Below, in pieces: positions 16,691 through 54,765 of a stretch of 64,000 nt of DNA (position 1 is its first letter; the number at the start of each line of letters is the position of its first letter). Origin of the DNA: Coprinus comatus (taxonomy: Eukaryota > Basidiomycota > Agaricomycetes > Agaricales > Agaricaceae); NCBI GenBank assembly GCA_034638255.1, contig JAWPGT010000075.1:47419-111418 (forward strand), in the 5' to 3' direction. Made by a program: the position numbers and the translations under genes. The notes beneath the pieces were generated by a model, which was not told where the DNA came from, ran no database searches, and worked only from the letters and a program-made list of their open reading frames with translations.

Positions 16691-17823
16691 ATGAACCAGA
16701 ATACTCAACAACAACCCCGCGTCCAGGGTCATTCATCAGTGACTGACGCCTCACTTGTTGAAGCAGAACGTCTCCAATACGTCATAGAACGCACCGTAGA
16801 GGAACGCTCGGCTTTGTTACGGCGTGTCAACAGTCGGGGCTCAGCAACAAGGGACGTTCCAGCTGAAGTTCTCTCTACCATATTTCGATTTGCTTGTCAA
16901 CCCCTTGATTCACGCGTCCTCGAATATGATTCAGCCAGTCCCAATGTCTATCCCACATATCCACTTCTTTTGGCCTCCGTCTCATCCACCTGGCGGGATG
17001 TGGTTAATTCGACACCCCAATTATGGGCGTTTATGCGAACTAAAGTCTGATAGAAATGTAAATTGTATCGTCGCCCTTTTGCGACTTCATTTGCGCAAAT
17101 GTGGAGCCGTAGGGGTGACGGTCGATTTGGATTTCCGGGACCAGACCGCAATTGACAGTGGGCATAGAATGAGAGAAGATGAGAAGAATGAGGCCGAAAG
17201 ATATGGCATTTACTATGCCGAAAACGATGGAATAGAACATTATGATGAATCATTGGCATTGGAACCCATACGGAAGGTGATATTTGACGAGTACCCGGAG
17301 ATGGTCAGAGGCCTTCGTTTTGGTAAACGCTCCCCCCGCCTGGTTCAAAGGAGCATCTGAATCTCTCAATTATTTGGGTTTCGCAAGATTTACCGCGCTA
17401 AAGCGCGTTCACCTCACTTGGAAACCAGATCCATATGGACCGTCGTTTGGAACAAATAGACATGACCAATTTCAAATCGACCTCAAGAGCATGCCAGTTC
17501 TTCAAGAGGGTTACATATATATGTTGCCGGAGATATTGACATTGTTGACTCCCTTAGCGGTCGCATCTGATAACATTACCAACCTTACATTATCCGAATT
17601 GAATTACGCCAATTGTCTTTCCCTGCTTCACCAATGTAAAAACCTTCGTTCCGTTTCGATGATGCGTCCAAATTATCTCCAGATGTCAAGACGGGATATA
17701 CCCAAGGAACTTTTGGCGAGAATCATTCAATTGCCACGCCTTGAAACCTTCGAATGGACACTGGAAAGGCACATCACAAATTTTCCATCTCTACTTTCTA
17801 TCTTGACTCTTCCTTCTATTCGT
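16691..17823 (+). pseudogene. F-box protein gene, 5' half, cut by the KDZ transposon
   Basis: Starts at ATG 16691 (MNQNTQQQPRVQG). It carries AERLQYVIERTVEERSALL and LRRVN, then the F-box (DVPAEVLSTIFRFACQ...LLLASVSSTWRDVVNSTPQLW). Two 1-nt frame changes are needed, at about 17045 and in a T run at about 17320. After the first it continues DRNVNCIVALLRLHLRKCG and LALEPIRKVIFDEYPEMVRG, and after the second LVNAPPAWFKGASE, TNLTLSELNYANCLSLL and FPSLLSILTLPSIR. At CTATTCGT (17816-17823) it is interrupted by the KDZ element; the continuation is at 54179-54765. The frameshifts could predate insertion or be sequence errors. The role expected of an intact copy is an SCF substrate receptor. Confidence 0.8.
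17816..17823. repeat. 8-bp target-site duplication of the KDZ element, left copy
   Basis: CTATTCGT directly precedes the left terminus (CACCTGTGG) and is repeated exactly at 54179-54186, just after the right terminus. An 8-bp duplication is what the Zisupton/KDZ superfamily is known to make. Confidence 0.95.
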
Positions 17824-18914
17824 CACCTGTGGTTCCCAGAGTTGACCTAGTGTAAGAGATGCCGGTCGATAAAACTAACACCTCTAATAAGAGGTGGATT
17901 TGGAAACCATGGCTCCCGTCAATATCCTGGCAATAAATGCTAGGTTCTTAGTGAAAATCTGACTTGATGTCGTGATATATCCTGTGTCAGGTCTACTTAT
18001 CACGTGTATGATAGATCCGACCGTGGGGCTATCATATTCTGATCATGTTTATTATATTTTCATGTTTTACTTTACATCCGACCTTGTAAATGACATGATA
18101 TTATGTCTAAGAGGTCTCTATGTTCCTCAACACCGCCGCGGACTCCGTGCCGCCTCCGGGGTCCATGTGTCATCATCACCGATCAGCCGTGGACACCTAA
18201 CATTACACTTGTGTCACATTATGTTCTATGATATGTTTATGATAGGTAACTCTACATCCAATAACAAAGTTATGTCTATAAGAGCTCAATATGTTTTTCC
18301 CAATACCACCTCGGACTCCGTGCCGCCTCCAGAGTCCGTGATACTGTGTGTCATCATCATTATATATAATATTATGCCCATGTCATGTTTGTTATTTCTT
18401 ATGATATGTTTGTGATAGGTACACAATTATGTCTAGGAGCTCTATATGTTTTTTTTCTAATATTACCACAAATCACTTTTCCAAATCACGCATGTGTTTG
18501 TCAAACCATCCTTCCTTGTCTTTGTATTATCTATGTTACACTATGTTAGTTACTTGTTGTGAAATGATTAATCTTATGTTTATAGGTTCAAGGCATTAAG
18601 TACTCATAATAAATCACACAATGTCAATGTCAGTGTTTAACTCTATATGTTCTTATAGTAACCATAGTCTAAAATATAAAATAGCCTTATTCTTTTTCTT
18701 TTTTTTTTTGCGAAGTTTTTAATTATGGGGAAGAGCCTGTCATTGCATTGTAAGTAGTAATAATCAATAAGAAGCCTTTTTTTAATGCGGAAGCCGTCGT
18801 GTACTCCCATCTCCCATCACCCAATCACAGTATTGATGGATTTTAATTATGCGGGAGCTGTCATGTACTCCTATCACCTGTCATCTGATCACGGTATTGA
18901 CAGGTTTTAATTAT
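17824..18914 (+). repeat. KDZ left terminal inverted repeat (about 1.09 kb)
   Basis: By eye it is nearly identical to the reverse complement of 53091-54178. Internal structure: a repeat unit of about 160-167 bp starts near 18104, 18271 and 18428 (landmarks TATGTCTA...AGAG/AGCTC and CGGACTCCGTGCCGCCTCC), and an inner array of about 60-bp units marked by TAATTATGCGGAAGC occurs at about 18720, 18781, 18841 and 18904. Such subterminal arrays commonly bind transposase. An open frame at 17972-18415 that reappears in the other arm is a by-product of the repeat, not a gene. Confidence 0.9.
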
Positions 18915-20088
18915 GCGGAAGCCTCTATCAGTTGACCACACAGGTTAATGACTATATGGCTGCATTAGGAGGGTAAACTGTAAATTACTACTACCAAGTT
19001 CCAACAAACAAGATTCATAGTATAAGAAGGCTTTTATTTCTCTTATTCCGTTATGCAGAAAGAAAAGAAAAGAGTTTAGAGTCGAAGGAACTCTCGTGAG
19101 TCATAAGAGACTTGACCAGGTTGCTTGGAGTACGGCGTTGGAGTGCCCGATGGCAGCATTAGGTATGGTGTCAATGTTGAACGGCAAGAATCATTTTCTT
19201 TAATTATGCGGAACTTAGAAGCCATCAGAATGCCTCCTGATGGTGATTCTTTTATCCTACAGACTGCTTGGAGACGGCGTTGGAGCACCTGATGTCGGTA
19301 TTAGATAGGATTAAAATACAACTAACAAGTGGAACTCAAAAAAAGACAACTTTGATTTCCGTAGTCATGTTATATATGGAAACAAAAGGACAGTTTATGA
19401 GTTGGGATAAATTATGAGTACATTCCTTTTGTCTAAGGACATGTTTCTTGCACATGTTTTCCATTTACATCAAGCACAGACTTTAGAGAACAAGGCAGGT
19501 TCAGTGTTATTGACATTGGCAGAAGCAGCAGAGAAGCCTTTGTTGACGTTCTATTAGATATATATCCACCCGATTTATTATGTCTTTCAAGATTAAGGAG
19601 TACTAAATCTGGGCACAAACCTGTACAACCCTCAACCCTGGAACCTTCTATCCGATACTCCTTACCTATGTTTTGTCTGTCTAAGGTGGAATGGTGAAAC
19701 TCACACCACATTTCAAGTACAACAATATATGTAGTAAATTGGAATGCAATAGCTTCAAATGATCAATTATCCCAAGCCCGAAGCTGCTCATGACAGGTGT
19801 CAAATAGACTCGGAATTGAATATTGAAGTTGGAGCATAGGTTGCATTGGCAACCACTTCTAACTGAGAGATGCTTCATGTCCACGGATTCTAGAAGATTC
19901 ACCGAAGGTTGTCAAATCATCACCAATTATATATTCTACAGTTGGTACACCAATGAACATCGATACTCTCATTTATTTTATTCAACCAAATTTCAGGGTA
20001 ATCAATCTACAATAAAATTTCCAAGAAATGTAAAAATGAATGTCTCTTCAGATATTAGAAGTAGGAACTGACAGCAGATGTACATAAC
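18915..20088. other. Left subterminal region of the KDZ element
   Basis: Non-coding. It holds another copy of the TAATTATGCGGAA motif at 19200 and a diverged direct repeat (landmark GACGGCGTTGGAG/TACGGCGTTGGAG) at about 19130-19160 and 19270-19300. No gene was recognised. Confidence 0.5.
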
Positions 20089-20291
20089 CTAAGCTGCATG
20101 ATCTGGTAATGGATCCATAACAGCTGCAATTAATTCCAATTCTTCCTGTACCTGAGCTTCTTCGGCATCTCCTTCGGCCTCGGCTGCAAGTTCAACTTCT
20201 GCCTGAACATCATTAATTGCATCCTGATTTGTCTCTACCTCCAATGGGATGTCTGCATGAGATGTGAGAACAGTTCCCATAGATCCAGACT
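20089..20291 (-). pseudogene. KDZ transposase, C-terminal fragment (3' of the gypsy insertion)
   Basis: An acidic Ala/Glu-rich tail (AEAEGDAEEAQVQEELELI) ends at the stop codon 20089-20091. Removing the gypsy element with one CACGG copy joins it in frame to the HQTRFTLANQQHR segment at 29243: the junction codons read HR then ESGSMG. It is therefore the true C-terminus of the transposase at 37751-40659 and 29243-29795. Confidence 0.8.
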
Positions 20292-20296
20292 CACGG
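20292..20296. repeat. 5-bp target-site duplication of the gypsy element, left copy
   Basis: CACGG; the matching copy is at 29238-29242, immediately after the other LTR. Confidence 0.92.
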
Positions 20297-20816
20297 TGTT
20301 ATAATCTTGCCTATACCTCCGTTTCGGTATAGACGATGCTACGATGGATCTCTTCAAGATGCTCGTAGGAGGAGAACGTCTACTCAGACTGAGACTATTT
20401 TCAGGGGACGACCTCCACAGTACTCGGACTGTAGATCACAGGTGTTCCTTACTAGTAAGCCGTTCGTGCAAGAGTTAGAGCTGACTCCGGTTCTAGGTAT
20501 CAAGTTGAGGGCGATGAACGAGATAGAGTAGAAGCAACTTAGAGTATTAAGCTGAAGCTTAATCTCTGTCGCTGTCCATGTATTTATACAACTACGAGTA
20601 CAGGTTGTAGGCTATGCTTGATACATGTGAGACAGGAGAGTGAAACTATCTACAGCTGAAACAGTGAGTGAAACGACAAGTGGAAGTCCGTAGAAAGTGC
20701 TAGTCCGAGGCTATACGAAACAGTAGTCCAAGGCTATGTGAAACGAGTAAGAGAAAGTACACTATCGTCCATCATTAGTTCTAATGATTAGTCGTGATAA
20801 ATATGAAACCGTAACA
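20297..20816 (-). repeat. Gypsy 3' LTR (520 bp)
   Basis: Matches 28718-29237 almost base for base. Open frames on the plus strand within it are copies of the LTR, not genes. Confidence 0.95.
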
Positions 20817-20927
20817 TTATCCCCTTTCTAGAGAACTAGTCCATAGTTCATAAATAATAGTTCAAGGTAGTAGTCCAGACGAAAATAAAAAGGAAAGAAA
20901 AAGTACTCAAAGAAAATAGGTCCACGT

Positions 20928-22975
20928 TTAGACACGTCTGTCATAGCGAGAGGGTCGAGTTTGGTAGGTGGGCAGCGGAGTGGGTGGTCTGGCAGGAAGA
21001 GGGTGGCGTACTGCTGAAGTGGGGATTTCCCAAAGAGGAGGAGTATGTGAAATGCGGTGTAGGAACTGGGAGGGGTGGCGGATTTCATCTACTCGGCGGT
21101 TGTCTTGCTCATCTCGATAGGTGACTCGGTTAGGTGGCAATCTGGGGTTGACCCATGGTCTGGCATCTCCTCGATAGTTTCCATCGTTCTCCAAGTTGGC
21201 AGGAAAGGGACACTCGTTTGTAAGAGGAGCGAGGGTTCGACGAGCCAGAATTCGATCCGAAGTGGGATGAGTGGTTAACAGATAAGTAGTGGTGAATTCG
21301 GGGTTTCGGTTCTCATCGAGACGTCGAGGGAGAGGAGTGAGGAGGGAGGAAGTATGTCCGACACGATGAAATTGTAGTCCATGAGCTTTCTGGGTGCCAA
21401 AGATCTCGGGAGTGATTTGATCTTGAGCTCTTGTAAGTGCGATGGGAGTGGCTGGTTCCAGGGGCTCGGGAGTATTGAGTCGAGAGACAATGACTGGGGA
21501 TGTGGGTCGATTCTTGCAAGTCCAGGAATAATGTCCCATGGTGTTGCAGAATCGGCATTGGTAGTCAGGGCATGACGATCCAATGTGTCCGACTAATCCA
21601 CAGACAATGCAACCGTAATCATAGCACTTCTTTTCTTCGTCGGTGAACTGGTTGTAGACCAGTAAGGGAATATCCTTCTTCATGATATCTTCCTTCAACT
21701 TGTAGACCGGGAACCTTCCAAATCGTTGCTCAAAATCTCCAGAACCGATGATCTTATCAGCCAGTTCCTTTAATGACGATGCATAGTGAACTGCTCTTGA
21801 CGATTCGAATGGTGGGTTGGAGATATTTCGTAAGATACGGGCCTCTCGTCGGTTTGGGGGATGGTAAAGAGCGGGCGTGGTGTATCGATACGGATATCTG
21901 GAACCAAGGTTGGCGAATGGATGGTCTGGGGCGATTGGATAGGTATTGGGGATGTCGGTAAGGAGATTGGCGGGAGGAACCTGGCTAGCTGGGAGGCTGG
22001 GGTTCTCACGTCCAACATTTCTAGGAACATCCGATCCCGTTGGGTCATCTGGTCGTGGAGGGTTGGTTGTGGGGGTAGAGGCTTCTGAGATCTCCGATGC
22101 ACGGGCGAGGTACTCGGTAACGGTCTCCCCCCGAGTTGTCGAACGAAGTATAATTGTGCCAAGCGACCGGGTGCGGAGGTTGGAGCATATCGTTCTGCTC
22201 GTGCCGTCGACGCAATGTGGGTGAGGACATTCCAGAGTTCATAGAGTTTCTCGAAATATGGAAGGGAGAGAAAATCGGCATTGGATCCAGCTGGTAACTC
22301 TCGTGGTGCCTCTCCATCCTCGTGGTAGGAGAGCATGTTTGGATGTCCAACTCCCCTTCTCCAGTTATAGTGATTTCCCCATTCCGATGTACTCGAATTA
22401 TGAATGGAGGGGGTGGCAGGTGCGCTTCTCGGGTGAATTTCCGTCGCAAATACTGGTTCAGGCGAGTTACCATCTGACCTAGAGGGTGCAGTGGTCGGTC
22501 GTTCAATGAGGGGAGAGACTGCGTCTGGGGTTGCGATGCGGGGTATGGGGTGAGCAATGGGTGTCTCTGTTTGATCCATGGTAGGTGGAATGGCATTGAA
22601 CCTTGCCAGGACAATGGCTGCGGTGAGTTGGGGTTCTTCAATCAGAGTTGTTCCAGGTGGGTAAGTACCACGAGCGATAAGAGTGTCAATGTGCAGGCGA
22701 TTGAGAATGTGAGGAGGAATATCCTCGATAGCAGTATCAAGAAGAACTTGAACTTCTGGATCGTCCAGTCGAAGTTGGTTAGGATCAAAAGCTGGATTGA
22801 AAGCAAGAGGAGTATTGATAGCTCCTGTTGTAGATGCAGTTCGAGGGGGTGTGGTTGCTGGTGACGGAAAGGTATCGTTGGTGGTTGAGCTTAGGCTCGG
22901 TGTGGAAGATGAGTGAGAGGAGGGCGAGTATTCAAGAGGAGAGGGGCCTGAGGTAGAGTCTTGTTGTTGGGTCAT
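20928..22975 (-). CDS. Extra 3' ORF of the gypsy element with two CCHC zinc knuckles
   Basis: It starts at ATG 22975, overlapping the stop of the chromodomain frame as ATGA. Residues 1-200 are Ser/Pro/Thr-rich, followed by a more globular region (VQVLLDTAIEDIPPHILNRL, FLSLPYFEKLYELWNVL). The frame ends at 21770, but the next frame continues in register (ASSLKELADKIIGSGDFEQ, then LLVYNQFTDEEKK) into two adjacent CX2CX4HX4C knuckles (CIVCGLVGHIGSSC and CRFCNTMGHYSWTC). A Pro-rich tail with many YRDEQ/RYDRR-type basic residues ends at 20928. A 1-nt frameshift at about 21785 probably splits one protein of about 680 aa. The layout resembles a second Gag-like nucleic-acid-binding protein. The function is inferred from the knuckles only. 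Confidence 0.7.
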
Positions 22976-23240
22976 TTATATCTGCGAGGGGGGGTAGAGA
23001 GTGTCTTCTTTGGAGGAGCCCTTTTAAGTGAAAGGCGATGGTTCTTCTGGTATTCTCCAAACAGTTCTTTTGCTGAATCTGAAACATTCTCTTCTGGTTC
23101 CCAAGTATTCTCTGAGTCAGGAAATCCCTTCCATTTGATCAAATACTTCATCTTGTTTCTACTCCTTTTGTGATTGATGATTGCTTCGACTTCCCAGTGT
23201 TCTTCTCCATCTATCAAGTCAGGGATGTTTCAGAGGAAGG
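22972..23240 (-). CDS. Chromodomain at the C-terminus of the gypsy integrase
   Basis: The sequence WEVEAIINHKRSRNKMKYLI followed by KWKGFPDSENTWEPEENV is a canonical chromodomain (aromatic W/Y positions plus the WKG...TWEP motif). In chromoviruses it directs integration to particular chromatin. It is now one frame off from the integrase frame ending at 23214, so a 1-nt indel near 23222 separates it. It ends RRYK at a TGA that overlaps the ATG of the 3' ORF. Confidence 0.85.
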
Positions 23241-26200
23241 CTTATTTGGGTTGATCTCGCTTTGAACTGCGGGTTTCAACAGAGCCACATGAAACGTGTT
23301 GTAGATCTTCCATGAAGTTGGTAGAAGAAGTTGATAAGTCAGAGGTCCTTTGCGTTTTAGGATTTTGAAGGGACCTTGACGTTTCGGCTTGATCTTCGAT
23401 GACTGATATTGGATTGGAAGATTCTTCGCATTTAGATAAACTTCATCCCCTTCATTATAGGTTGGATAATGAGGGCGTTTGACACGAGAAGATATCACTT
23501 TAGCTGCGGATTGATAGGCTAGCAGTGCTTCGTGTCTGAAACGATCAAGTTTTCGAACATGATCATCGACTGATGGTGCACCAGATTCTTCCATGACATT
23601 GGGGAAGGATGGCGGATTTGTTCCAGTCATAATTTCTAGTGGTGATCGTTTGTTGGCGGCATGGGGACGGGAGTTGTAACTGAATTCGAGAAGTGGAAGT
23701 GCGTCGACCCAGTCGTTTGGTTGGTTATTGCAGTAGATCGAGAGATATGTTTCAATCTCTTGATTGGCTCGTTCTGTTGCACCATCTGTTTGGGGATGGT
23801 ATGCCGTAGAAGGTTTCCAGTCGATCTGGAGCATCTTAAAGAACCTTTGGGCAGCTTTAGAAGCAAAACGAGGGTCGCGATCTGAGACAATAGTGTTGGG
23901 GGTACCAAACCGTTTGTAGACATTGTCGATCAGGAGTTTAGAGATGTCGGCGAAAGTGCAGGTTTTCGACGTTGGACAGAGTATTATCCCCTTCGATAAT
24001 CCGCGATCTATCACGGATAATATAGAATCAAATTTTCCGCAAGGAGGGAGATCGGTGATTAAGTCCATAGCTATATCGCCAAAAACACGCATGGATTCGG
24101 ATGGAGGAAGTGGTTGGAATGGAGGTTTTGCAGGATTCCGATCAATCTTGAATTGTTGGCATTGTGGACAGGCTTTGACATAGTTGGTAATGAAATCGCG
24201 CATTCCAGGCCATTTCACTATTAACTGAATTCGTCTTAATGTTTCATCTATTCCAGGGTGTCCTGCGGAATGATGATCATGATACTGTGCTAGAAGCCGT
24301 TGTTTCTCCTTCAGAGTGGGTTCTTGGGCAATTAAGGCAGGTTCAGTTGAAGTGGCGTTTAAGAATAGCTTGTTTGGTAAAACCACAATATCCACATTTT
24401 CTTCGGCAGAGTCAAAGTTATGATCTGGTCGTCTAGAGAGTGCATCTGCAGCAGGAATTTCTTTTCCTGGTTTGTGTTTTATCACAAAATTGTATTTCTG
24501 CAGTTCAGCCCATGTGCGAGCTTGACGACGTGACAGCTTTTGCGAATCTTGCCAAAAACGGAGATTGTTGTGATCACTGTGCACAGTTACTATATGCGGT
24601 GATCCCAGTAGGTAGTGGCGCCAGTCATCAAAAGCTTGTTTGATCGCAAGGAGTTCTTTGTCCGGAGTGGGATAGTTGCGTTCCGCGGGTCCAAGGGATT
24701 TAGAACGGAATGCACAAGGACGAGTAACTCCATTATCATCAGTTTGACATAGAACACACCGCCCGTTGCAAAGTCAGAAGCATCTGTTTCGACATGGAAA
24801 GGTTTGTGAGGATCAGGAGTGAGAAGGATAGATCCATTCGCAAACATGTCTTTAACAGTGTTGAAAGCTTCTTCTGCTTCTGGGGTCCATTTAAATGCTA
24901 CCGATTTGCGTAGAAGGTCATTTAGAGGACGGGTGATATTGGCGTAGTTCCTGATGAATTTTCGGTAGAAGTTTGCAAATCCTAAGAACTTTCTAACTTC
25001 GCGTTGTGATGTTGGTGTAGGCCATTCTGCAATTCCGGCAAGTTTGTCTTCTGACATGGTGATGCTGTTCTGGCTTATTGTCATTCCTAGGAATTCTATG
25101 GAGGTTTTCTCGAATTCGCATTTCTCGGTCTTGAGATAAAGATCGTTTTCTTGGACTCTTTTTAGAACTTCAAGAGTCATCTTGTTAAGATCTTGCTTGT
25201 TATCGGAGAAAATGAGAATGTCGTCTGTAGACAATAACTGCTGTACAACCAGGTTTGTCAATGAGGTCTCGGAAGATATGATCCATCATTGCCTGGAACG
25301 TTGCAGGAGAGTTTGTCATTCCAAAGAACATAACAGTAGGTTCGAAAAGACCGAATGGAGTTTTGAATGCTCCTTTCCATTGGTCTCCATCAAAGATGCG
25401 AACGTTGTTATATCCAAGACGAACGTCCATTTTGGTGAAGTATTTAGCTCCACGGAGGCGGTCCATAATTGAGCTGACATTGGGAATGGGATAGGCGTTT
25501 TTCACAGTGTGGGAATTGAGATAGCGATAATCTTGACATGGTCTAAGAGACTTTCCATCTTTCTTATTGACGAAAAAGAATGGTGATGCCATAGGAGATT
25601 TAGATGGTCGGATATATCCTTTGGCTAGGTTCTCATCAAGAAAGGTCTTTAATTCATCCATTTCAGCCGGTGCAAGGCGATATGGTTTGTAAGACTTTGG
25701 AGTGAAGGTTTCTTTTAGATCAATGCGATGATCACAAGGTCGTGATGGAGGAAATCGTTCTGAGGCCTTCTTGTCAAAGACAGGAAGATATTTCCATAAT
25801 GTTCTAGGAACTATTTCCTTTGGATCGGAAGATGTGGCTTTTGCATGCTTTTGAGATATAAGTTGGGATGCAGAAGTTTTGGCATTGATTTGTATGAGGC
25901 GGCCAGCCAATCCAGTGTCAAGGGTATCAGGGAGCGATTGTGCAGCAATGCGGAGGTTTTTAGGAACATCAATTGGGTCTTCACTGTAACAGGTGACTTC
26001 GTTGATTGTGATGGAGTTTTCGAGTTGGGAGCAAGAGATGGTTCTAGAAGATGGTGAACGCCATCGGAATGTTTTGGCAGTCCAATCAATGTCGGGATTG
26101 TACTGTTCCAAAAAGGAAAACCCTAGAATGGCGGGGTGTTTTCCAATTCCAATAACATAGGCATCTGTCTTGATGTTTCGACCATCAATGATACATTCCA

Positions 26201-26659
26201 CAACTACTTTCTCAGTGATTGTTCCACTGATGTTTTCTGTTCCATCAACATTCGTAACAGCGATTGGGGGTTCCACAGGGATTCGTTGGAGGTTAAGGGA
26301 GCGTGCGGTTTTCTCGGAAACGAAGTTTCCTTGAGCTCCTGAATCAATCAGGGCATTGAGGGTGGCGATCTGGTGGGAGCGGTGATTTTGAAGATAGATG
26401 GGTAGATAAATAGATTTTTCGTTGCGGGACAGGATGAGAGGAATAACGGAAATGTTCACTGGAGGTGAATTGTCTGGTTCGGGAGAATAAATAGGGTCCG
26501 GTATGTCCATTGTCTTTGAGGTAGAGGAGTGAGTAGTACTAATGTCCGATTCATCGTCTGTAAAGGAGAGATTGTCTGAGTCTTGAGAGTCTTCATGAAT
26601 CACCGAAAGGATAGCGGAGGCTGGATGGGTTCGACTTGTCGCCTTAAGCAAAACCCGGC
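23214..26659 (-). pseudogene. Gypsy pol: protease, reverse transcriptase, RNase H, integrase (frameshifted)
   Basis: N- to C-terminal on the minus strand: protease with LIDSGAQGNF (26651-26200), RT from about 25740 (FTPKSYKPYRLAPAEM, FFFVNKKDGKSLRPCQDYRY), RNase H with VETDASDFATGG, and integrase with the HHCC finger (HSAGHPG...CPQCQQF) and the D,D-35-E core (DIAMDLITDLP, VSDRDPRF, HPQTDGATERANQ). Two indels break it. One of 2 nt at about 25221-25231 destroys the catalytic YVDD box (Y is followed directly by the remains of DDILIFSDN). One of 1 nt at about 24747 lies just after VETDASDFATGG. The pol frame overlaps the end of gag in another frame. No in-frame nonsense codons were found. Confidence 0.88.
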
Positions 26660-28343: not shown

Positions 28344-28371
28344 GCTAAAGGCAGCCCTTCTTCTTTAAGAG

Positions 28372-28480
28372 GGTATGTTCTCAGCCACTACTTGCTTAAG
28401 GTAGACCTGCTCGACGGCGAGGTATGTTATTAGCTACTACTTGCTTAAGGTAGTCCTGCTCGACGGCAAGGTATGTTATC
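28372..28480. repeat. 49-bp direct repeats in the gypsy 5' leader
   Basis: GGTATGTT starts at 28372, 28421 and 28470, and the 49-bp units between them are nearly identical (landmark CTTGCTTAAGGTAG then CCTGCTCGACGGC). They lie between the 5' LTR and gag. Such leader repeats may be packaging or enhancer elements; here that is a guess. Confidence 0.7.
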
Positions 28481-28700
28481 AGCCCGGATCTTGATCCTAT
28501 GCGTGAGGGTTTGTGCTAGTTTTCCAAATAATGACGGTTGCGGGTTAGGCGGTTGTCAAAGGAATAAAAGCAAGGGGTTGCAGAGACTCTGATTAGGAGT
28601 TCGCACGGAGTTGGGTTGGGGAGGGTGATGAGTGCAGAGACCTGGGTTAGAGGTTCGCGGAGGAAGACGATGACAGATATCCTGGTTAGGGATTCGTCGA

Positions 28701-29237: not shown

Positions 29238-29242
29238 CACGG

Positions 29243-29795: not shown

Positions 29796-29800
29796 CAAGC

Positions 29801-30112: not shown

Positions 30113-30133
30113 CACCCTCCTAAACTCGCAGGT

Positions 30134-30739: not shown

Positions 30740-30763
30740 GGTCGAGAGTGGGGGTAGTCCGCT

Positions 30764-44080: not shown

Positions 44081-44503
44081 CATCATCCAAGGTTCGCTTT
44101 TTCTCTCCATTTTATGTTAATAATTACTTATTTCACTATTACAGTCTCTATGCTGATACAAAGGTATAAGAATGTATTAATACTGTAGACTAAGTTAGTA
44201 TATCACATGTATTATTACAACTTCAATGATATTTTTTTTATTGTCCTTATTCCCTTACTTGGTGTGACCTTGAGAGTACTTGAATTATCCCGAAAATGCA
44301 AATAAAATCCTGTAAAATATAATTACAAGGTAGAAAAGTAACTTTTATGTGCTGTCCAAGTACGTTCAAAGCTATTCAAGTACACCCAAGTTAGAGGGAC
44401 CTACTTGGAGCTCCTTGGGACAAATTTTCCAAGGAACTCCAAGGATAATTTTACTCTTCTTTGAATTCTATTGGGGTGTACTTGGAGCTCCTTGGATGCC
44501 TTT
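44081..44503. other. Spacer with repeated TACTTGGAGCTCCTTGG motif
   Basis: TACTTGGAGCTCCTTGG occurs at about 44403 and 44480, with inverted relatives (CCAAGGAACTCCAAGG, CAAGTACCTCCAAGG) between and after them. It may be the end of a small non-autonomous DNA element. No gene. Confidence 0.35.
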
Positions 44504-44783
44504 CTAAGTAACTTCAAGTACCTCCAAGGACATGCGCGAAATCCTGATGCTGTAAACACCAGTAGCTGCACCACATGTAACTAGCCACCACATGACGTTG
44601 TCATCACTACTTCCGCGCTGAGATTGAGTGTGGACTAGAGCCCAAGAGCTCCCTGGGTTGGATGATGACGGTGGTGGTTGACTTGCACTCCGAGTCGGAG
44701 TTGGTGAGCTAGTCACTGGGTAACGAGAATAGGGGGGTGGAGAAGTGATGAACTGCCGATGGGGTTAATATGTGTACTGGGAC
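44504..44783 (-). pseudogene. KDZ cargo 2, 3' end beyond the copia insertion
   Basis: Directly past the GGGAC duplication the coding frame of the 49380-50088 segment continues (PGPSTHINPIGSSSLL). After a 1-nt change at about 44750 it reads a Ser/Pro/Thr-rich segment (TSSPTPTRSASQPPPSSSNP) and a hydrophobic end (VMWWLVTCGAATGVYSI) to a stop at 44504. The hydrophobic stretch could be a membrane anchor. Confidence 0.5.
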
Positions 44784-45131
44784 TGTCAGGAATGCTCTAG
44801 ACAGTCCCCAAGGTCAGTACTTATTGTTGGTTGAGGTTAGAAGAGTTGTGGTTGGATATTCTCTTTAGAGTTCTGGACTTGTAGATTGTTTCCGCTTTCT
44901 GTGACATCACAATGTCACGTCACACGTTACTGAAGCGTCCTGCAGACACATGAAGACTCTCTAGTCTAATACAAGTGTCTGCAGGTGAGTAGTTAAGAAG
45001 TTATTGTATCTCTCTAGTCTAATACAAGTGTCTGCAGTGTTTGTGTTATATCTCAGTCATTTCTCAACCATTTCCTTCCATTCCTTCGTCATCGTGCTCG
45101 TCTCGTCGTCCTCTACGATCCTGCGCTTACA
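44784..45131 (+). repeat. Copia C 5' LTR (348 bp)
   Basis: It contains a short inner direct repeat (landmark TCTAATACAAGTGTCTGCAG, twice, about 60 bp apart) and a dyad around TGTGACATCACAATGTCACG and TCACA that includes a TGACGT-like (CRE/bZIP) core on the reverse strand. Confidence 0.93.
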
Positions 45132-45144
45132 GGTTATGGGCCCC
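45132..45144 (+). promoter_or_regulatory. Primer-binding site of copia C, half-tRNA-iMet type
   Basis: GGTTATGGGCCCC immediately follows the 5' LTR. It is the same site as in element B and pairs with an initiator tRNA-Met anticodon arm (…CCATAACC). Confidence 0.65.
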
Positions 45145-45233
45145 GTGCTTTAGGACTTCAAGAAACACGTTATTTATTCACATATTCCACTCTCTACTGC
45201 TCAACACTCTTTCTACTATTTTACAACGACTTT

Positions 45234-47213
45234 ATGGCTTTCAAAATGCGTCACTCATCCTCTGGACATCCCTCCCTTCCTCCTAAACCTTCAGCTCTAC
45301 CTCAGGCCGCTTTTCCAACCACAAAATGCGATTTTTGCGGAGTTACAGGCCACTCTCAGGTTTCATGCTTTAGTTTTGAGAAGGCAAAGGCAAAAGCTCA
45401 ATATCTCGCCAACCGACCATCCGAATCACGTCAAACTTGTTATACACGTTTATCTCATATTTCGCAAACGACACCCAAAATTTGGTGCGATGAGACGAAC
45501 TCCTTCATTACCGAGTTTGCTGGCAATGCAACATCTACCCTTCCTTCCTCCAGCCCTCTCCAACCTCATGCAAGTTTCCAATGGCTTTGTGACACCGGTG
45601 CTACATCTCACATGTCTCCCCACCATCACTGGTTCAGGAACTACACCCCCTCTCGCATTCCCATTCGCTTGGCTGATCATTCTGTGGTTTACTCAGCTGG
45701 CATAGGTTCTGTGGTGTTTGAGCCTATTCTGAAAGGAAAGAAGGCTAGACCGGTTGAATTTTCGAGGGTTTTACACGTTCCTGACCTAGGGAACAACCTC
45801 CTATCTTGCCTACATCTTACCCGACATAAAGGCTTCAATATCAACATCTCTTCCCATTCCATCACCTTCAGGAAGTCCAGATCTACTCTCTTTACTGCCA
45901 CCATTGACTCTGACAACTGTGCTTACCTCAATGGCTCAGTTATTGCCTCTGAGGTCGCTTTTTCCACCTCTACACTCCCTCTTGACCTCTCCCTCTGGCA
46001 CAGACGTTTCATTCACCACAATTACTCAGATGTGAAGAAGATGATTGCTCAAGACCTGGTTACTGGTATTTCTCTTGATTCTGATTCACTCCCTGACCCA
46101 ATTTGTGAACCTTGCCTTGCTGGAAAGATGCACTCAACTTCATTCCCTCCCTCCACCCACCATACTCGATCTCCACTCGAACTCATTCATTCTGATCTCC
46201 ATGGTCCTCTTCCTACACCTACTGCTCAAGGTTACAAATATTGGATTACTTTCATTGATGATGCTACTCGATTTCGGTCTGTTATATTACTCAAGGCCAA
46301 GTCTGAAGCTTTCGAAGCATTCAAACACTACAAAGCATGGGTAGAGAACCAACTCGGGATGAAGATCAAGGCGCTTCAAGATGATAAGGGAGGTGAATAC
46401 ATGTCCAATGCCTTTTGCTCCTTCACTATGGGGTGTGGTATTGAACGTAGGCACTCTACCCGTAATCGTCCTCAGCAAAATGGTCTTGCTGAACGTGCAA
46501 ATCGAACAATGGGTGAACGTATCACCACCATGCTCTCGGAATCTGGTCTTCCTCCTTCTTTCTGGGGCGAATGTATTGCCTCTATGGTTCATGTCTGGAA
46601 TCACCTTCCTACTTCCCCACTTCCTCACACCACACCATTTGAGGCCTTCTACAAGCGTAAACCTGACGTCTCTCACCTTCGAGTCTGGGGATGTACTGCC
46701 TACGTTTTCATACAAAAGGATAAGCGTACATCTCTTGAACCTCATATGGAGAAGTGTATTTTCTTGGGTTACGAACCTGGTTACAAAGGTTGGAAGTTTT
46801 ATAATCCAACAACTCGAAAGGTGATCATCTCCGAAACCGCTCATTTTGACGAACGCTACTTTCCGGGTCTTTCAAAAGGGAAGACGAACAATGTTCCTGA
46901 CTTCTCTCTATCCTCTATACCATCTTCCTCTTCATCATCTACTCCAACTTCGCCAACGATCTCAGGTGTTCCACTTCCCAAAGATGAGGGGGGTATTGTA
47001 GAGCATTCCACTTCACTTCCACCTCTAGTTCCTGCTGCTCCTATTCATCTTCCGGCACCTGTCCCACCTTCACCTTCACCTTCACCATCCCCACCTCACT
47101 CACCAAAACTCTCTCCACCTCCAACACCTCGCATTCAACCAGCAGCTACCTCCTCCTCCTCCTTCTACTCCTCCTCATCGTCAACCACCTTCTGCTCAAC
47201 CACCATCCCGTAG
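45234..47213 (+). CDS. Copia C Gag remnant, protease and integrase
   Basis: Starts at ATG 45234 and within 40 codons reaches the knuckle CDFCGVTGHSQVSC (CX2CX4HX4C). There is no room for a capsid domain, so most of Gag was lost. The protease active site is WLCDTGATSHM. Integrase follows: LWHRRFIHHNYSDVKKM and CEPCLAGKMH (zinc finger), then HSDLHGPL, ALQDDKGGEYMSN and QQNGLAERANRT (D,D,E core), and VWGCTAYVFI. The linker to RT is Ser/Pro-rich and ends in a (CCT)n run at 47150-47175, where a 1-nt change throws the frame; the next frame (PPSRRRGSRIRQPSWK) leads into RT. Confidence 0.9.
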   Translation: MAFKMRHSSSGHPSLPPKPSALPQAAFPTTKCDFCGVTGHSQVSCFSFEKAKAKAQYLANRPSESRQTCYTRLSHISQTTPKIWCDETNSFITEFAGNATSTLPSSSPLQPHASFQWLCDTGATSHMSPHHHWFRNYTPSRIPIRLADHSVVYSAGIGSVVFEPILKGKKARPVEFSRVLHVPDLGNNLLSCLHLTRHKGFNINISSHSITFRKSRSTLFTATIDSDNCAYLNGSVIASEVAFSTSTLPLDLSLWHRRFIHHNYSDVKKMIAQDLVTGISLDSDSLPDPICEPCLAGKMHSTSFPPSTHHTRSPLELIHSDLHGPLPTPTAQGYKYWITFIDDATRFRSVILLKAKSEAFEAFKHYKAWVENQLGMKIKALQDDKGGEYMSNAFCSFTMGCGIERRHSTRNRPQQNGLAERANRTMGERITTMLSESGLPPSFWGECIASMVHVWNHLPTSPLPHTTPFEAFYKRKPDVSHLRVWGCTAYVFIQKDKRTSLEPHMEKCIFLGYEPGYKGWKFYNPTTRKVIISETAHFDERYFPGLSKGKTNNVPDFSLSSIPSSSSSSTPTSPTISGVPLPKDEGGIVEHSTSLPPLVPAAPIHLPAPVPPSPSPSPSPPHSPKLSPPPTPRIQPAATSSSSFYSSSSSTTFCSTTIP

Positions 47214-48942
47214 ACGAGGCTCTCGAATTCGACAACCTTCTTGGAAAGTTCGAGAGAATCTCCGACAACAAAAGCTCTATTTTGACTCTGAAGCTGAGGA
47301 TAGTGACGAAGATTTCGCGTTTTCAGTATCTGATGAGAAGAATGGTTTTAAGGAAGTTGAGTTTGCTGGTAACGTGTCATCCGGTCATCCAGGATCATTC
47401 AAAGCTGCGATGAATTCCCCTGATTCACATTTGTGGAAAGAGGCAATGGACAAGGAGTACTCTACACTCGAGGCGAATGGTACTTGGGAACTTATTCCTT
47501 TACCCCGTGGTGAGAAAGCTATCAAGTCTGGTTGGGTTTACAAGATTAAGGACAATCCTGATGGTTCCATCGAACGGTATAAAGCTCGTCTTGTTGCTAA
47601 AGGTTACGCTCAACGTCCTGGATATGATTATACTGAAGTCTTTGCTCCAACATTCCGTCCCGCTTCCCTCCGCCTCATTGTCGCCCTTGCCGCCAAAGAA
47701 GGTTACAAGTTACGCTCTATCGACATCTCCTCCGCCTTTACTTATGGTGACCTGGAAGAAGAGATCTATATGCGTCAACCTGAAGGTTATCATTTTGGTG
47801 ACTCAAACATGGTTTTTAGGCTTCGAAAATCGCTTTATGGACTCAAACAAGCAGCTCGACAATGGAACAAGAAACTTCACTCGGTCTTCATTTCACTTGG
47901 TTACATTCGACTCCAATCTGACAGCTCTATCTACATCTACTCTAAAGGTCCAGTCAAGGTTATTGTTCCCATTTTCATTGACGATATTACTCTTGCTTCG
48001 AAGGATGACAAGGCCATGGATGATACGATCAAAGAGCTCTCTACTCACTTCAAACTTCGAGATCTCGGCTCTACCTCCTGGTTATTGGCTGTTAAGGTTG
48101 ATCAAGACCCCTCTCATCGCTCCATTTCGCTTTCACAAGAGAAATATGTCAAGGAACTCCTCGAACGCTTCCAGATGTCTGACTGTCGACCTGTGAAGAC
48201 CCCTCTCACTCCTGGACTCAATCTCTCCACTGTCACTGTCACTGAAGATGACAAACTCCTCATGAAAGATGTTCCCTACCTCAGCGCTGTTGGCGCTCTT
48301 CAATATCTGGCCACCATGACTCGTCCTGACATTGCCTTCGCTGTTTCTTACCTTGGGAGATTCAATCACAATCCTGGTCCTCAACATTGGGCGGCTGTCA
48401 AACATCTCTTCCGCTATCTCAAGGGTACAATGGACTATAAGCTGGTCTACAAAGGTGACATGGCTACTGAGGATCTCTTCATCACATATTCTGATGCTTC
48501 TCATGGTTCGTGTCAAGAGACTGGAAGGGCTACGGGTGGTTATGTGACTTTGGTATGTGGTGCGGCTGTTGGTTGGTCTTCAAAACGTCAGAGTTTAGTC
48601 ACTCTCTCCTCCACTGAAGCTGAGTACGTTGCGGCTGTTGAAGGGGGAAAGGAGATTATGTGGATGCGCAACATTCTATCCGAGTTCGGTTATTCCTTCA
48701 CTTTCCCCTCCATTCTTAACATCGACAACCAATCTGCTATTACTGTTGCTAAGAATCCTGAACACCATGGTCGTATGAAGCAATTGGATTTGTGTTATTT
48801 CTGGCTCCGTGATGCTGTTCAAAACAAAGTCATTTCCCCTCTCTTTGTTCCTACCTCTGAACAACTGGCTGACATCTTCACCAAGGCTGTTGAACCAAAG
48901 GCAGTCTCTCACTTTGTTCCTCTTCTTGGACTTTCATCATAA
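47214..48942 (+). CDS. Copia C reverse transcriptase and RNase H
   Basis: After the linker (RQPSWKVRENLRQQKLYFDS) comes the RT: MNSPDSHLWKEAMDKEYSTL, ARLVAKGYAQRPGYDYTEVF, LRSIDISSAFTYGDLEEEIY and the catalytic box PIFIDDITLAS. RNase H carries ITYSDASHGSCQ, SSTEAEYVAAVEGGKEI and LDLCYFWLRDAV. It ends at TAA 48940-48942, 89 bp before the 3' LTR. There are no internal stops. With the upstream frame restored it would be one polyprotein. Confidence 0.92.
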
Positions 48943-49031
48943 TTCCTTCTCTTCCTTTTCTTTTATCACTTCACTCTTTTCTTTTCCATTTATTTCCTTC
49001 CTTTGTCTGGACTGGCTAGATCAAGGGGGTA

Positions 49032-49379
49032 TGTCAGGAATGCTCTAGACAGTCCCCAAGGTCAGTACTTATTGTTGGTTGAGGTTAGAAGAGTTGTGGT
49101 TGGATATTCTCTTTAGAGTTCTGGACTTGTAGATTGTTTCCGCTTTCTGTGACATCACAATGTCACGTCACACGTTACTGAAGCGTCCTGCAGACACATG
49201 AAGACTCTCTAGTCTAATACAAGTGTCTGCAGGTGAGTAGTTAAGAAGTTATTGTATCTCTCTAGTCTAATACAAGTGTCTGCAGTGTTTGTGTTATATC
49301 TCAGTCATTTCTCAACCATTTCCTTCCATTCCTTCGTCATCGTGCTCGTCTCGTCGTCCTCTACGATCCTGCGCTTACA
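49032..49379 (+). repeat. Copia C 3' LTR (348 bp)
   Basis: By eye identical to 44784-45131; followed by the GGGAC duplication. Confidence 0.93.
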
Positions 49380-50088
49380 GGGACCTGGTGTCGCATTCCT
49401 GGGACCCGGAGGCGTGTTACTGGGACCTGGAGTTGCACTTCTCTCCCTATTTACCAGAAGCCGAGCTTTGGCAGCTTCAGCTTTTTGAATCCGTTCCATA
49501 GCATTCATTTCTTCAGTCTCCTTTTGAAGTTTCGCGAAGGCTCTGGCCCGAACCACCTCACATGGCATATGTGATTTCAAAAGATAGCGATTGTTGTTGT
49601 GAACCCAAGGGCCAGGACCAAGCAGATTTAAAGAGGAAGCCTGAGCGAAAGCGAATTCGGCATCCTCTTGGCTGTGGTAAGTTGAGTAATGTCGCCCTCG
49701 AACTTTTCCAAGAGCGTTGAGCACTGAGGCTCTAAGGTCACATGAGCTGATGGCACGAGGTTGATACGTAGATGGATTCTCACATGGTTGGGAACACCCC
49801 TGTTTCGTCCCCGTGAAATACAACAAACCACTTCACATAGCAGTGGCAAGGATTCTCCTTCGGGGTGTGCATCATGTCGAGGGGCAAGCTCATCTTCGAG
49901 TTGGGTTGCTGTGGATTTTCTACCAGTACTACACTGGAATTCTCGTCATCCGATAAATCTGTTACAGAGTCGCAAAGGTAAGTATTAGAGAACTAGTTTG
50001 ATCACAGCATACGCTCACCATCGACTACTATAGTGATTTTCTGAGATGGTGCAGGGGACTCAGAATTCTCAGGCTGTTCTGCTGACAT
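49380..50088 (-). pseudogene. KDZ cargo 2: RNase H1 N-terminal-like domain gene, 5' part, cut by copia C
   Basis: Three exons: 50088-50019 (MSAEQPENSESPAPSQK), 49958-49784 and 49731-49380, with GT-AG introns in phase. The domain reads CYVKWFVVFHGDETGVFPTI | ASVLNALGKVRGRHYSTYHS | QEDAEFAFAQA. This is the pattern of the RNase H1 N-terminal/viroplasmin fold (WYVV...G..GVY...W, then V.G....Y.S.EEA..AF). The intron falls at the same codon position as in cargo 1. A long charged helix (RARAFAKLQKETEEMNAMER) and Pro/Gly repeats (SATPGPSNTPPGPRNATPGP) follow before copia C. The rest is at 44504-44783. An RNA/hybrid-binding role is inferred. Confidence 0.65.
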
Positions 50089-50462: not shown

Positions 50463-52809
50463 ATGTTGTCCCCTTCATCAGAACCCCTTAGATTGTCCAC
50501 CGAGGATGATTGGATGCTACCACAACCTGAATCGCAGGTGTCACCAACCACGGGAACTCCATCTATTCCCCAACTTCCAACAATCCCGTCTTCAATGGCC
50601 ACTCAAATGCCTGGCCTTGTAGGTGACGAAACTCACAGTCTTCGGAATCCCTCTCGTCCTGAACAACCCATCTGTGAGCAACCCCAAAAACCCTCGGATG
50701 CTGAGAAGAAAACCATGGCCTTCCGCGCACAGGCCAGATTGGCCAAACAGCAAGTTGTTGATGACGAACTTCAAAAATTACATCAACTATGTGGTGAACA
50801 TATTCACGATATAGCCACCAAGTACGATATTAAAGAGGACAAGGTCCGCCGAAGTGTTTATTTCTCCTCTCACGCGAAGAAGAAGAGAAAGGCAAGTCTG
50901 TTTGATGCTGAAGTTAGTAATCGATTTGATGAGCTACACCAGTCTGGTATGATCTGATTTTCATATCTTTCAATTAAAATTTACTAATGGTGGTTTTAAG
51001 GTCAATATGGTGTAAAGTTATTCGACGTCCAAGCAGAGGTAGCTCAAGCTCGCTTGGATTGCGAGCATAACCACGAAACTCTCTCTGCAGAGAGAAAGAA
51101 GGAGCTGATTAGGCAGTTGGAAGCAAAGCGTGCATTGAAGGAGATGGGTTGTCGTTCCACAAACAAAAGTGCAGCTCAAGACGTGGCAAACTTCAGGAAA
51201 TATGTAATGCAAGAGGTAAGTTGATTTTATTTTATTTCTGTTGTTTTAACAGCCTTGACTAACATTCTATAAATTTAGTCTTACAATCTCAAGCAACGTA
51301 CTGGTGCACTCACCATGTTTGCCACCACCCGAGATCATTTAAATGACACCTTCATCCCAACGGTCTACTCGACTGAAACATCAAAAGGGTTTTGGAAAGA
51401 TGTATTGGGGATGACGTCCATGGAGGTTGTAGGAAAAATGGAGAGTTGGGTAGGTACAAGGCAAGGTGAGAGTATTGTTAGTGTATCTTTTTTAATCACG
51501 CTCATGCACACTACCAGAACCTTCAAAACATCAAGCAAAGGATCTGAGAAAGGAATGTAGTACTCTCATTTTGAAAGGACTTCATAAGTAAATTGAAGTA
51601 TTTATTAGATTAACCTTTACTGATAATATGTTGTCCAGGCGAACTTTCAAGGTCTAAAAATATCAACATGAACTATATTAACTACGACAAGGCAATTGTG
51701 AACACCTATGATATTCAATTAGTAGGGTGGCCAGAAGGTATACCATTTGTCTGTCCATCAGATCTAGGAGCCAGTCAGTTGTGTCAGCTCAGGGATGCCT
51801 TGATATTTTGTCAGTGTTATTGGGAGGTGATGACGAGAGAGGACGTGCTCAACATAGAACAAGGTTGGAAAGCATTGAGGCGGATGGAGGTGTTGTAGGA
51901 ATTCCGCGCAAGGAACGGTCTGACAAGGGCAAGAAACGTGCGCATCCCGATCCCGATCCATCAAGACAGCAGAAGAAGCAAAAAAAGACAAATATGCCTC
52001 TTCAAAACCAACTACCCCCTCAATATTGTAGCGCAGAATACATATTCAACTCTGATCCTGATGAAAATGAAGACGACACTCATCCAATCACCACCCAGCC
52101 CATTTCAACAATCTCCATTCCCACTGAACTACCAGCTGGGCCTCTTGTGACTGTGCAAACACCCTCGACTACTACCCCCGAGGATCAACTTGTCCAACCT
52201 CCTCCTGAATCTGTTGATTCTGGTGAGTGGATGACGTTTGATCTGAGCATGTCTACTGCGGAATTGTTGTCTCACCTTCGCTCCACGTCCTGTCAACCAA
52301 ATCAACGACCTGATACCATTGTTACCACACCCGATGCCGCCAATGCCACTCAAGCTGGTTCCAATCACACTACGTCATTGGTTTCCAATATTGCTTCGTT
52401 ATCCATTAGTTCTGAACCTACCTCATATGTTAGGTCTCCTTCCATGCCATTGATAATGCCTCCCACCCCTTCACAGCCAGTATCCCCACCAGCCATCACC
52501 ATCGACCAATCTCACCCTCATGACACTGTGATATTGCCAACTCCTACTGATGTCTCCCCTGATTCCTCGGCTTCCTTGTGTGACAGTTCCCCCACTGTGG
52601 AGTCCGTTCAATCCCCACCAGTCCGCCGAAGTGTCAGGTTCCATGGTCGTGATGATATCCACCACGCTCCATCCGCGCCTGTTCGCAGAAGTGCCAGATT
52701 CCATGCCAATGATAACCTAGATACTCAGCCTGTTCCATCTGTACCTGGCTCTAAACCTGAAGCTCTCCGTTGTAGTGTAAGAAATCGGGTCAAGGTTGTA
52801 CGTTCATAG
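50463..52809 (+). pseudogene. KDZ-associated accessory protein gene
   Basis: Five exons: 50463-50946, 51001-51215, 51279-51465, 51518 to about 51597, and 51639-52809. Sequence: a Pro/Ser-rich start, DAEKKTMAFRAQARLAKQQ, a helical region (LDCEHNHETLSAERKKELIR), FWKDVLGMTSMEVVGKMESW, MNYINYDKAIVNTYDIQLVG, WPEGIPFVCPSDLG, LRDALI, then IPRKERSDKGKKRAHPD. The tail has three basic RRS[VA]RFH-like repeats. I recall proteins with the 'NY.NYD..IV...V.LVGWP' and 'KERSDKGKKR' signatures beside KDZ transposases in many agaricomycetes; their function is unknown. Two TGA codons (51545-51547 and 51572-51574) and a 1-nt shift at about 51842 (between MTRE and RAQHRT) break it. Upstream exons near 50103-50324 are possible. 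Confidence 0.7.
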
Positions 52810-53090
52810 TGTAGACAGTTGCACTTGTACTTATTACTTCTTGGTGGTGTTTTCTTTTTTATTTCTTGTAAAATTTAAACGGTAATATATTTCTTGAGCT
52901 GGTCTACACCACTTCCTGTCACATTTCAGCTCTGTCTTGCACTCACCCACAGAGATGTTGAGCTTCGAGCTGGTTCTGAGACTAAACGGCTTCTAGAATC
53001 CTGTCATGACTCATTGCAATGATCGGATCACAAGGGTAATTAAAAGAAAAAGATTCTCATTGATCTCTCCTAATACAGGCATTGTCATAT

Positions 53091-54178
53091 AATTAAGACC
53101 TGTCAATACCGTGATCGGGTGACAGGTGATAGGAGTACATGACGGCTCCCGCATAATTAAAATCCATCAATACTGTGATTGGGTGATGGGAGATGGGAGT
53201 ACACGACGGCTTCCGCATTAAAAAAAGGCTTCTTATTGATTATTACTACTTACAACGCAATGACAGGCTCTTCCGCATAATTAAAAACTTCACAAAAAAA
53301 AAAAGAAAAAGAATAAGGCTATTTTATATTTTAGACTATGGTTACTATAAGAACATATAGAGTTAAACACTGACATTGACATTGTGTGATTTATTATGAG
53401 TACTTAATGCCTTGAACCTATAAACATAAGATTAATCATTTCACAACAAGTAACTAACATAGTGTAACATAGATAATACAAAGACAAGGAAGGATGGTTT
53501 GACAAACACATGCGTGATTTGGAAAAGTGATTTGTGGTAATATTAGAAAAAAAACATATAGAGCTCCTAGACATAATTGTGTACCTATCACAAACATATC
53601 ATAAGAAATAACAAACATGACATGGGCATAATATTATATATAATGATGATGACACACAGTATCACGGACTCTGGAGGCGGCACGGAGTCCGAGGTGGTAT
53701 TGGGAAAAACATATTGAGCTCTTATAGACATAACTTTGTTATTGGATGTAGAGTTACCTATCATAAACATATCATAGAACATAATGTGACACAAGTGTAA
53801 TGTTAGGTGTCCACGGCTGATCGGTGATGATGACACATGGACCCGGAGGCGGCACGGAGTCCGCGGCGGTGTTGAGGAACATAGAGACCTCTTAGACATA
53901 ATATCATGTCATTTACAAGGTCGGATGTAAAGTAAAACATGAAAATATAATAAACATGATCAGAATATGATAGCCCCACGGTCGGATCTATCATACACGT
54001 GATAAGTAGACCTGACACAGGATATATCACGACATCAGGTCAGATTTTCACTAAGAACCTAGCATTTATTGCCAGGATATTGACGGGAGCCATGGTTTCC
54101 AAATCCACCTCTTATTAGAGGTGTTAGTTTTATCGACCGGCATCTCTTACACTAGGTCAACTCTGGGAACCACAGGTG
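53091..54178 (-). repeat. KDZ right terminal inverted repeat
   Basis: Reverse complement of 17824-18914. It ends CCACAGGTG and is followed at 54179-54186 by the CTATTCGT duplication. It contains the same inner 60-bp array (TTCCGCATAATTAAAA landmarks at about 53150, 53210 and 53274). The 280 bp between the accessory gene and this arm hold nothing recognisable. Confidence 0.92.
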
Positions 54179-54765
54179 CTATTCGTACCATCATTCTTCA
54201 TGATGCTTCGGATGAAAATGGAGAAATCGATTCTGGGCTTAGTAAGTTCCTCGGTAATCTTCCCATTTCATGTTCATCCATTTCCTTCGTTCAAAACTCT
54301 TATCATTCTCGTCTTAAGTTATTGTCATGTTTTGGGGAATGCATAAAACAAATTCCAAAGACGATCCTAGAAATCGAATTACGAAGCTCCTGTCTTCACT
54401 TTGCATCTTCTATTCATCTCGAAAAAGAAGGGATTGATGTGGAACAACTTACCAGGATTACGAAGGTTTCGGTGGTTAAGGACAGAAGATATGAAGCTAA
54501 CCCATCTAATGGAGGGTGTTGGTTAAGCAGGTTTAGGCGTGCTGAATTTTCTTGTCAATATGTATTCAAGTCGTCGGATTTTTTGGAGGCTATGAAAAAA
54601 AGAGTTGCTGTTAAGGGGTCAGAGTCAAAGTTCTGTTTCGAGTACGAAATTCAATACGGTCCTGTTGATTGGGAGATGGATGATAAGGAAGAATTGAAAG
54701 AGTTGGTTGCTGGTGGTCTGAGGCTTGAGGTTTTGGAAGATGGGAAAAAGGTAGATTGGCTTTGA
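54179..54765 (+). pseudogene. F-box protein gene, 3' half, right of the KDZ element
   Basis: From the CTATTCGT duplication onward the frame reads IIILHDASDENGEI-type sequence (TIILHDASDENGEIDSGL, SKFLGNLPISCSSISFVQNS), a leucine-rich-repeat-like region (TILEIELRSSCLHFAS), FKSSDFLEAMKKRVAVKGSE, and ends GKKVDWL with TGA at 54763. Joining 17823 to 54187 (one duplication copy) keeps the codon phase: PSIR then TIILHD. It shows no internal stop, so this half is undamaged apart from the transposon. Homologous ends occur at 10074-10680 and 59585-59705. Confidence 0.85.

Follow-up and report, generated by a model that had tools for sequence, protein, structure and literature searches.

A KDZ Transposon Bounded by 1.09-kb Inverted Repeats in an F-Box Gene of Coprinus comatus

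Insertion in the F-Box Gene

The window is a stretch of 64,000 nucleotides from Coprinus comatus (GCA_034638255.1, contig JAWPGT010000075.1, here C75, positions 47419-111418) in an assembly of 35.7 Mb and 134 contigs. It contains an F-box gene that is interrupted by a bounded insertion of 36,355 bp with a KDZ transposase gene inside. The 5' part of the F-box gene is located at 16661-17823 on the plus strand and provides a score of 21.4 bits for the F-box-like family PF12937, below the cutoff of 24.3. The 3' part, at 54187-54765 on the same strand, was assigned from the frame of the joined flanks and from an alignment with contig C42. Small insertions and deletions relative to the C42 copy appear upstream of the insertion.

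The left terminal inverted repeat (1091 bp) is found at 17824-18914 on the plus strand and the right one (1090 bp) at 53089-54178 on the minus strand. The two arms are identical at 1082 of 1091 aligned positions (99.2%) with a single gap. An earlier examination of the letters alone, here called the sequence-only reading, had described facing repeats of about 1.09 kb. The alignment bears this out and retains the left arm as given; the right arm, placed from 53091 in that reading, begins 2 bp earlier. The perfect 8-bp target-site duplication (TSD) reported in the same reading was recovered directly outside the left arm (17816-17823) and the right arm (54179-54186), with the sequence CTATTCGT in both copies.

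The joining of the two flanks with one copy of the duplication restores an unbroken F-box frame, ...LPSIRTIILHDA..., in agreement with the continuous coding phase that had been noted for removal of the interval and one duplication copy. When the joined F-box protein was used to search the assembly, an uninterrupted copy with 99% identity was detected at C42:10878-11963. The joined flanks align with the DNA of C42 over 2,502 bp at 98.0% identity, and a single CTATTCGT appears at C42:11377-11384 inside an open F-box frame of 581 amino acids. The proposed empty site is therefore present in the same assembly with the F-box gene intact, and it demonstrates that the 8-bp target was duplicated on insertion. 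An assembly error at either junction, named earlier as a possible refutation, is unlikely because C42 presents the predicted empty site.

The locus is almost certainly the product of cut-and-paste insertion into an F-box gene by a KDZ DNA transposon with inverted repeats of about 1.09 kb, at an 8-bp target that was duplicated. This confidence covers the insertion itself; the status of C42 as a haplotype and the order of nesting are graded separately below. In the course of such an event the transposase would bind the CACCTGT-type ends, excise the element, and insert it at a staggered cut of 8 bp. One assembly shows, base by base, where a large fungal KDZ insertion begins and ends, the two copies of its duplication, and its empty site.

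Genes of the Element

The nearest relative was found at C40:57156-69216. This element is 12,061 bp long, has inverted repeats of 937 bp (99.5% identity), is collinear with the window element, and terminates at the identical base, which supports the exact ends assigned in the sequence-only reading. Comparison of the two elements resolves three genes, of which the KDZ transposase gene and the middle gene are read from the minus strand and the third from the plus strand. The C40 element itself stands between a further pair of inverted repeats, C40:53358-56942 and C40:76026-79777 (L033 and L035), which are about 3.5 kb long and for the most part 84-89% alike.

The KDZ domain PF18758 matches 38697-39035 and 39092-39241 on the minus strand. 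The core exon, an open reading frame at 38607-39047 (minus strand), provides 128.6 bits against a cutoff of 26.6, and the earlier assignment of a KDZ transposase inside the element is confirmed. The start of the domain is located at 39264-39629 (minus strand; 17.3 bits, below the cutoff; 67% identity to the C40 copy) and the upstream exons at 39733-40296 (minus strand; 68-79% to C40). Weak matches to CxC1 and CxC2 of 16.9 and 15.3 bits, respectively, are obtained for 39733-39987, below cutoffs of about 27; the C40 copy likewise gives weak matches, with 16.1 bits for CxC2 and 14.5 bits for CxC1. Three further pieces follow on the minus strand. The first (37746-38058; 75% to C40) lies between a solo long terminal repeat (LTR) and LTR element A, the second is a C-terminal piece (29238-29800; 71-76%) between element A and a Gypsy retrotransposon, and the third is a tail (20089-20296; 48%) to the left of the Gypsy. 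The gene is thus cut by the Gypsy, by element A, and by one solo LTR. It is bounded by the inverted repeats, as in the KDZ superfamily. A TET/JBP gene as cargo was rejected because none of the 17 genome matches to TET_JBP (PF12851) is on C75; none is inside the 15 KDZ-bearing elements with paired ends described below.

Two insertions cut the middle gene: a second Copia element and a 2-kb repeat, the latter at an intron or close to one. The first part, with an RNase H1 N-terminal domain, is located at 49380-49992 on the minus strand, where its lower edge is cut by the second Copia (Cauli_VI PF01693, 22.7 bits; 66-67% to the C40 copy). Two minus-strand pieces were assigned from the W-x-VV...G-x-F/Y motif and the C40 comparison: a second repeat at 44550-44764 (37% to C40), between the second Copia and the Plavaka-like 2-kb insert, and the third repeat with the C-terminus at 42058-42500 (54-57% to C40). 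The motif thus appears three times in the middle gene of the window, with five matches across the 64 kb in six frames, and two further copies are found downstream of the first repeat in the relatives on C54, C1, and C101. The scores of the first repeat for PF01693 are 51.2, 38.9, and 22.7 bits for C1, C54, and the window, respectively (cutoff 21), from exon halves that were joined by eye. Three RNase H1 sequences with solved structures match the C1 segment with E values of 5e-6 to 2e-4. The second and third repeats of C1 are without Pfam support, and the scan of the C40 middle protein reported no catalytic domain of RNase H.

A database search with the middle gene gave no match although relatives exist in the same genome, and the same result was obtained for the joined F-box protein. 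The searched database is therefore a poor guide to fungal proteins. Along C42:3059-109305 several relatives of the interrupted F-box gene are distributed.

The third gene is located at 50463-52809 on the plus strand and was assigned by comparison with C40. Relative to the C40 copy its frame is broken near 51.85 kb; an apparent frame change is also found in the C40 gene, near 66.13 kb. No named domain scored above its cutoff in the pieces scanned, and the only database match is a distant one, Suillus P0001. The nested insertions, and in the third gene the frame break, leave none of the three genes of the window copy intact, and this copy can presumably no longer move by itself.

Nested Insertions

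Subtraction of the five outermost insertions from the 36,355 bp leaves 12,522 bp, so that 65.6% of the interval is nested DNA. Assignment of the full 36 kb to KDZ DNA was rejected on these grounds. The description in the sequence-only reading of a 36-kb KDZ transposon is retained for the insertion and abandoned for the size, since only about 12.5 kb belongs to the KDZ element.

Each of the seven nested insertions has a matching TSD, which is 2 bp long in one case and 5 bp in the other six; the four nested LTR pairs are 97.9-100% identical. The Gypsy element is located at 20297-29237 on the minus strand (LTRs of 520 bp, 99.8%; TSD CACGG). Element A is found at 29801-37745 (LTRs of about 314 bp, 99.0%; TSD CAAGC) and contains a Copia element at 30764-37426 on the minus strand (LTRs of 239 bp, 97.9%; TSD CCGCT), which in turn contains a solo LTR at 32781-33128 (TSD GCATC). 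Another solo LTR, at 38059-38387, is within the KDZ gene (TSD TTAGA). The second Copia is located at 44784-49379 on the plus strand (LTRs of 350 bp, 100%; TSD GGGAC). The Gypsy and both Copia assignments are backed by retroelement domains.

The remaining insertion, at 42550-44549 on the minus strand, is a 2.0-kb Plavaka-like repeat with the termini CATCA...TGATG and a 2-bp TSD. Its tandem repeat, together with PMC4289320, had prompted consideration of a Helitron. This identity was rejected because the termini and the 2-bp TSDs fit the description of PlavakaB in the sections of PMC12730594 consulted. Both ends were readable at four of the six loci L083-L088, namely L085-L088 (L087 is the window copy), and 2-bp TSDs appear at all four. 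This repeat occurs at about 40 genomic places, and with its high copy number it resembles a non-autonomous Plavaka element.

Related Elements in the Genome

The end pattern CACCTGTNGTTCCCAGA with at most two mismatches gave 57 matches in the genome compared with 13 for a reversed-pattern control. Forty-five of the 57 ends were examined, the 12 left out being two-mismatch rows, and pairs were formed by eye. Sixteen convergent pairs on the same contig were obtained. The 8-bp duplication is exact in thirteen of them, differs at one position in C57, and is missing from C40 and from C3:901264/923749. The C3 pair, which also lacks inverted repeats and a KDZ gene, is probably due to chance and was kept among the 16. 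The other 15 pairs enclose a KDZ gene, and all 15 also enclose the third gene; the middle gene is detectable in 10. The gene places were entered by hand, with 49 KDZ places condensed from 86 matches.

Pairings of ends across contigs served as a chance control, and 3 of 478 share an 8-mer. One exact pair is C130/C54, with 1,500 bp of identical sequence in the left flanks, so that a single locus is represented on both contigs, as duplicates or as haplotypes (C54:4512-15701 and C130:8274 onward). For the others, C44:185606/C69:43015 and C60:122002/C43:23013, the KDZ gene is on one contig and the third gene on the other, and because of this separation they look like single elements split between contigs. 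The half elements (C44:185606-end with C69:1-43015, and C60:122002-end with C43:1-23013) lie near contig ends, and the 8-bp duplications might serve to join these contigs.

Of the first 15 bases, 12 are the same in all 30 ends compared. Within elements, the identity of the inverted repeats, as taken from the best BLAST piece of 124-1091 bp, is about 98.7-100% for ten of the 15 KDZ-bearing pairs; the remaining five, namely both C19 elements, C46, C79, and C101, have lower values of 80-97%. Between elements the long inverted repeats are mostly not alignable; the left arm of the window could be aligned to one of eight other elements tried, that of C40, with 75% identity over 133 bp. No third match to a window arm was reported in the genome search, which also missed the diverged arms of C40. 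The sequence-only reading had suggested a search for other copies ending in CACCTGTGG. Relatives with 8-bp duplications were found in this manner; they are relatives and not further copies of the window element, as no third arm match was reported.

The relative on C54 is inserted in the 2.0-kb repeat described above, for which 42 match rows were obtained in the genome, some partial or split. Six empty sites are available for this insertion (L083-L088, with L087 nested in the window element), each with a single target AGGTAGAC. From the target the empty sites continue for 26 aligned bases to the end of the repeat. These are identical in four of the six; L085 has one mismatch and L087 has two. 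One KDZ element is enclosed in another on C19, where C19:305298-342612 contains C19:315619-340594, each with its own exact 8-bp duplication.

In a tree of KDZ domains from this genome (31 rows, that is, 30 loci and the window, with 13 of the 15 paired elements) the elements with paired ends do not form one clade; the bootstrap of this tree had not stabilized. The 11 rows for which no end was found appear as two groups of three and seven rows, and C102. The 13 exact 8-bp duplications, the similar ends, and the common gene layout provide defined substrates for tests of KDZ transposition.

Assessment of the Insertion and Its Alternatives

Several points weigh against the interpretation given above. 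The closest relative, C40, is without an 8-bp duplication. A deletion beside the C40 element is suggested because paralogues at C40:16 kb and C40:96 kb hold 283 and 284 bp, respectively, between its two flanks; this putative deletion is argued from paralogue coordinates only. Because a sequence pattern was used to find the ends, their similarity is in part built in. For the RNase H1 domain of C40, the whole protein scores 21.9 bits, above the cutoff, and no match was reported on a 157-amino acid fragment. C42 could be a segmental duplicate, and the succession of insertion first and nesting later would have to be deduced, as the sequence does not give the order.

Most simply, C75 with the insertion and C42 with the empty site are two nuclear haplotypes. 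C42:542-21193 is collinear with C75:55418-111318 at 97-99% identity in several blocks (which leave out C42:12301-13207), with a few short extra stretches on C42. If C42 were instead a paralogous segment, the KDZ element would have inserted into one duplicate by the same mechanism and there would be no haplotype polymorphism. The many F-box paralogues on C42 and the overlap of the right end of C75 with the left end of C42 are compatible with a duplication, which nevertheless appears unlikely: the two contigs are collinear at 97-99% across the overlap with both flanks included, and matching F-box pairs are also present on C28 and C93, as haplotigs would show.

It is comparably improbable that the nested insertions were already aboard when the element landed, with a 36-kb load moved in trans by the transposase of another copy. 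In favor of this, the sequence gives no order of events, the genome has many KDZ copies as possible sources of the enzyme, and the C19 relative of 37.3 kb, inside which a second KDZ element lies, is flanked by an exact 8-bp duplication. However, the nested TSDs are intact, the identity of the four LTR pairs is that expected of young insertions, and no second copy of the window arms was reported. The preferred order is that the LTR retrotransposons and the Plavaka-like element landed inside after the KDZ insertion and, with the frame break in the third gene, would have left the three genes broken and the copy immobile on its own. That the bounded unit belongs to another superfamily, with the KDZ gene as cargo or as a nested element, is very improbable: 8-bp duplications are also made by others such as hAT (as described in part of PMC12730594), but all 15 KDZ-bearing pairs have the same layout, no other DNA-transposon domain appeared among the open reading frames scanned, and C40 carries the same genes without nesting.

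Comparison with Published Elements

Inverted repeats and 8-bp TSDs have already been described for fungal KDZ elements, in PMC12810828 and PMC12730594. Together with the 13 of 16 end pairs with exact duplications in this genome, these reports show that the sequence-only reading overstated its case in calling such ends and empty sites rarely available. The window element joins a kind already published, and the companion with the RNase H1 domain is its newest part.

As presented in the consulted sections of PMC12810828, Cryptococcus KDZ1, KDZ2, and KDZ3 have a KDZ transposase, inverted repeats, and, in observed insertions, 8-bp TSDs like the window element, with a range of 4-8 bp given for KDZ2 and KDZ3. 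They are about 9-11 kb long with inverted repeats of 139-241 bp, compared with about 12.5 kb and 1.09 kb here, and are described there with KDZ and CxC1 domains and not with an RNase H1 N-terminal gene. Zisupton and Dileera share the KDZ superfamily and the 8-bp TSDs; the elements covered in PMC12730594 carry a TET/JBP gene, whereas the 15 paired elements here are without one. Kyakuja, reported in the same text from five orders of Agaricomycotina, belongs to the KDZ transposase group but has 7-bp TSDs and no inverted repeats, and the window element with its 8-bp TSD and 1.09-kb repeats is not of this type.

The companion with the RNase H1 domain looks to be the least described part of KDZ elements. 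The hybrid-binding domain of RNase H1 binds RNA:DNA hybrids, and the companion points to a possible role of such hybrids or of RNA-based silencing in the KDZ superfamily. Among the openly licensed papers searched, only PMC4289320 was found to place an RNase H1 N-terminal (viroplasmin, Cauli_VI) domain with transposons. The passages of this source consulted describe a long helpo1.3 copy of Pleurotus ostreatus with an extra segment of 10.7 kb, in which inverted repeats flank capD and capF. There capE has PF01693 and a domain of capF is classed as a putative transposase, as in the gene set of the window element, but capD, capE, and capF are reported as genes captured by a Helitron. Compared by description only, the cap segment may be a KDZ element of this kind that was inserted in a Helitron; if so, the published Helitron gene capture in P. 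ostreatus acquires a new reading.

A joint account is offered tentatively, as possible but on balance doubtful. The KDZ elements of this fungus with CACCTGT ends may represent a three-gene type with a transposase, a hybrid-binding protein in which an RNase H1 N-terminal domain but no catalytic domain of RNase H was found, and a third, conserved protein. The second of these might shield the element against silencing by RNA or work at R-loops, and would then take the place that a TET/JBP dioxygenase has in other KDZ lineages. The capD-capE-capF segment would be an element of the same type within a Helitron, and the long inverted repeats would be kept alike by arm-to-arm repair.

Inverted-repeat motifs of KDZ elements were also characterized in another mushroom, Marasmius oreades, according to the relevant part of PMC8290104. 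The corresponding part of PMC7641404 lists 36 KDZ-type transposons for P. ostreatus PC15, in which the intact ones are preceded by a CxC2 cluster.

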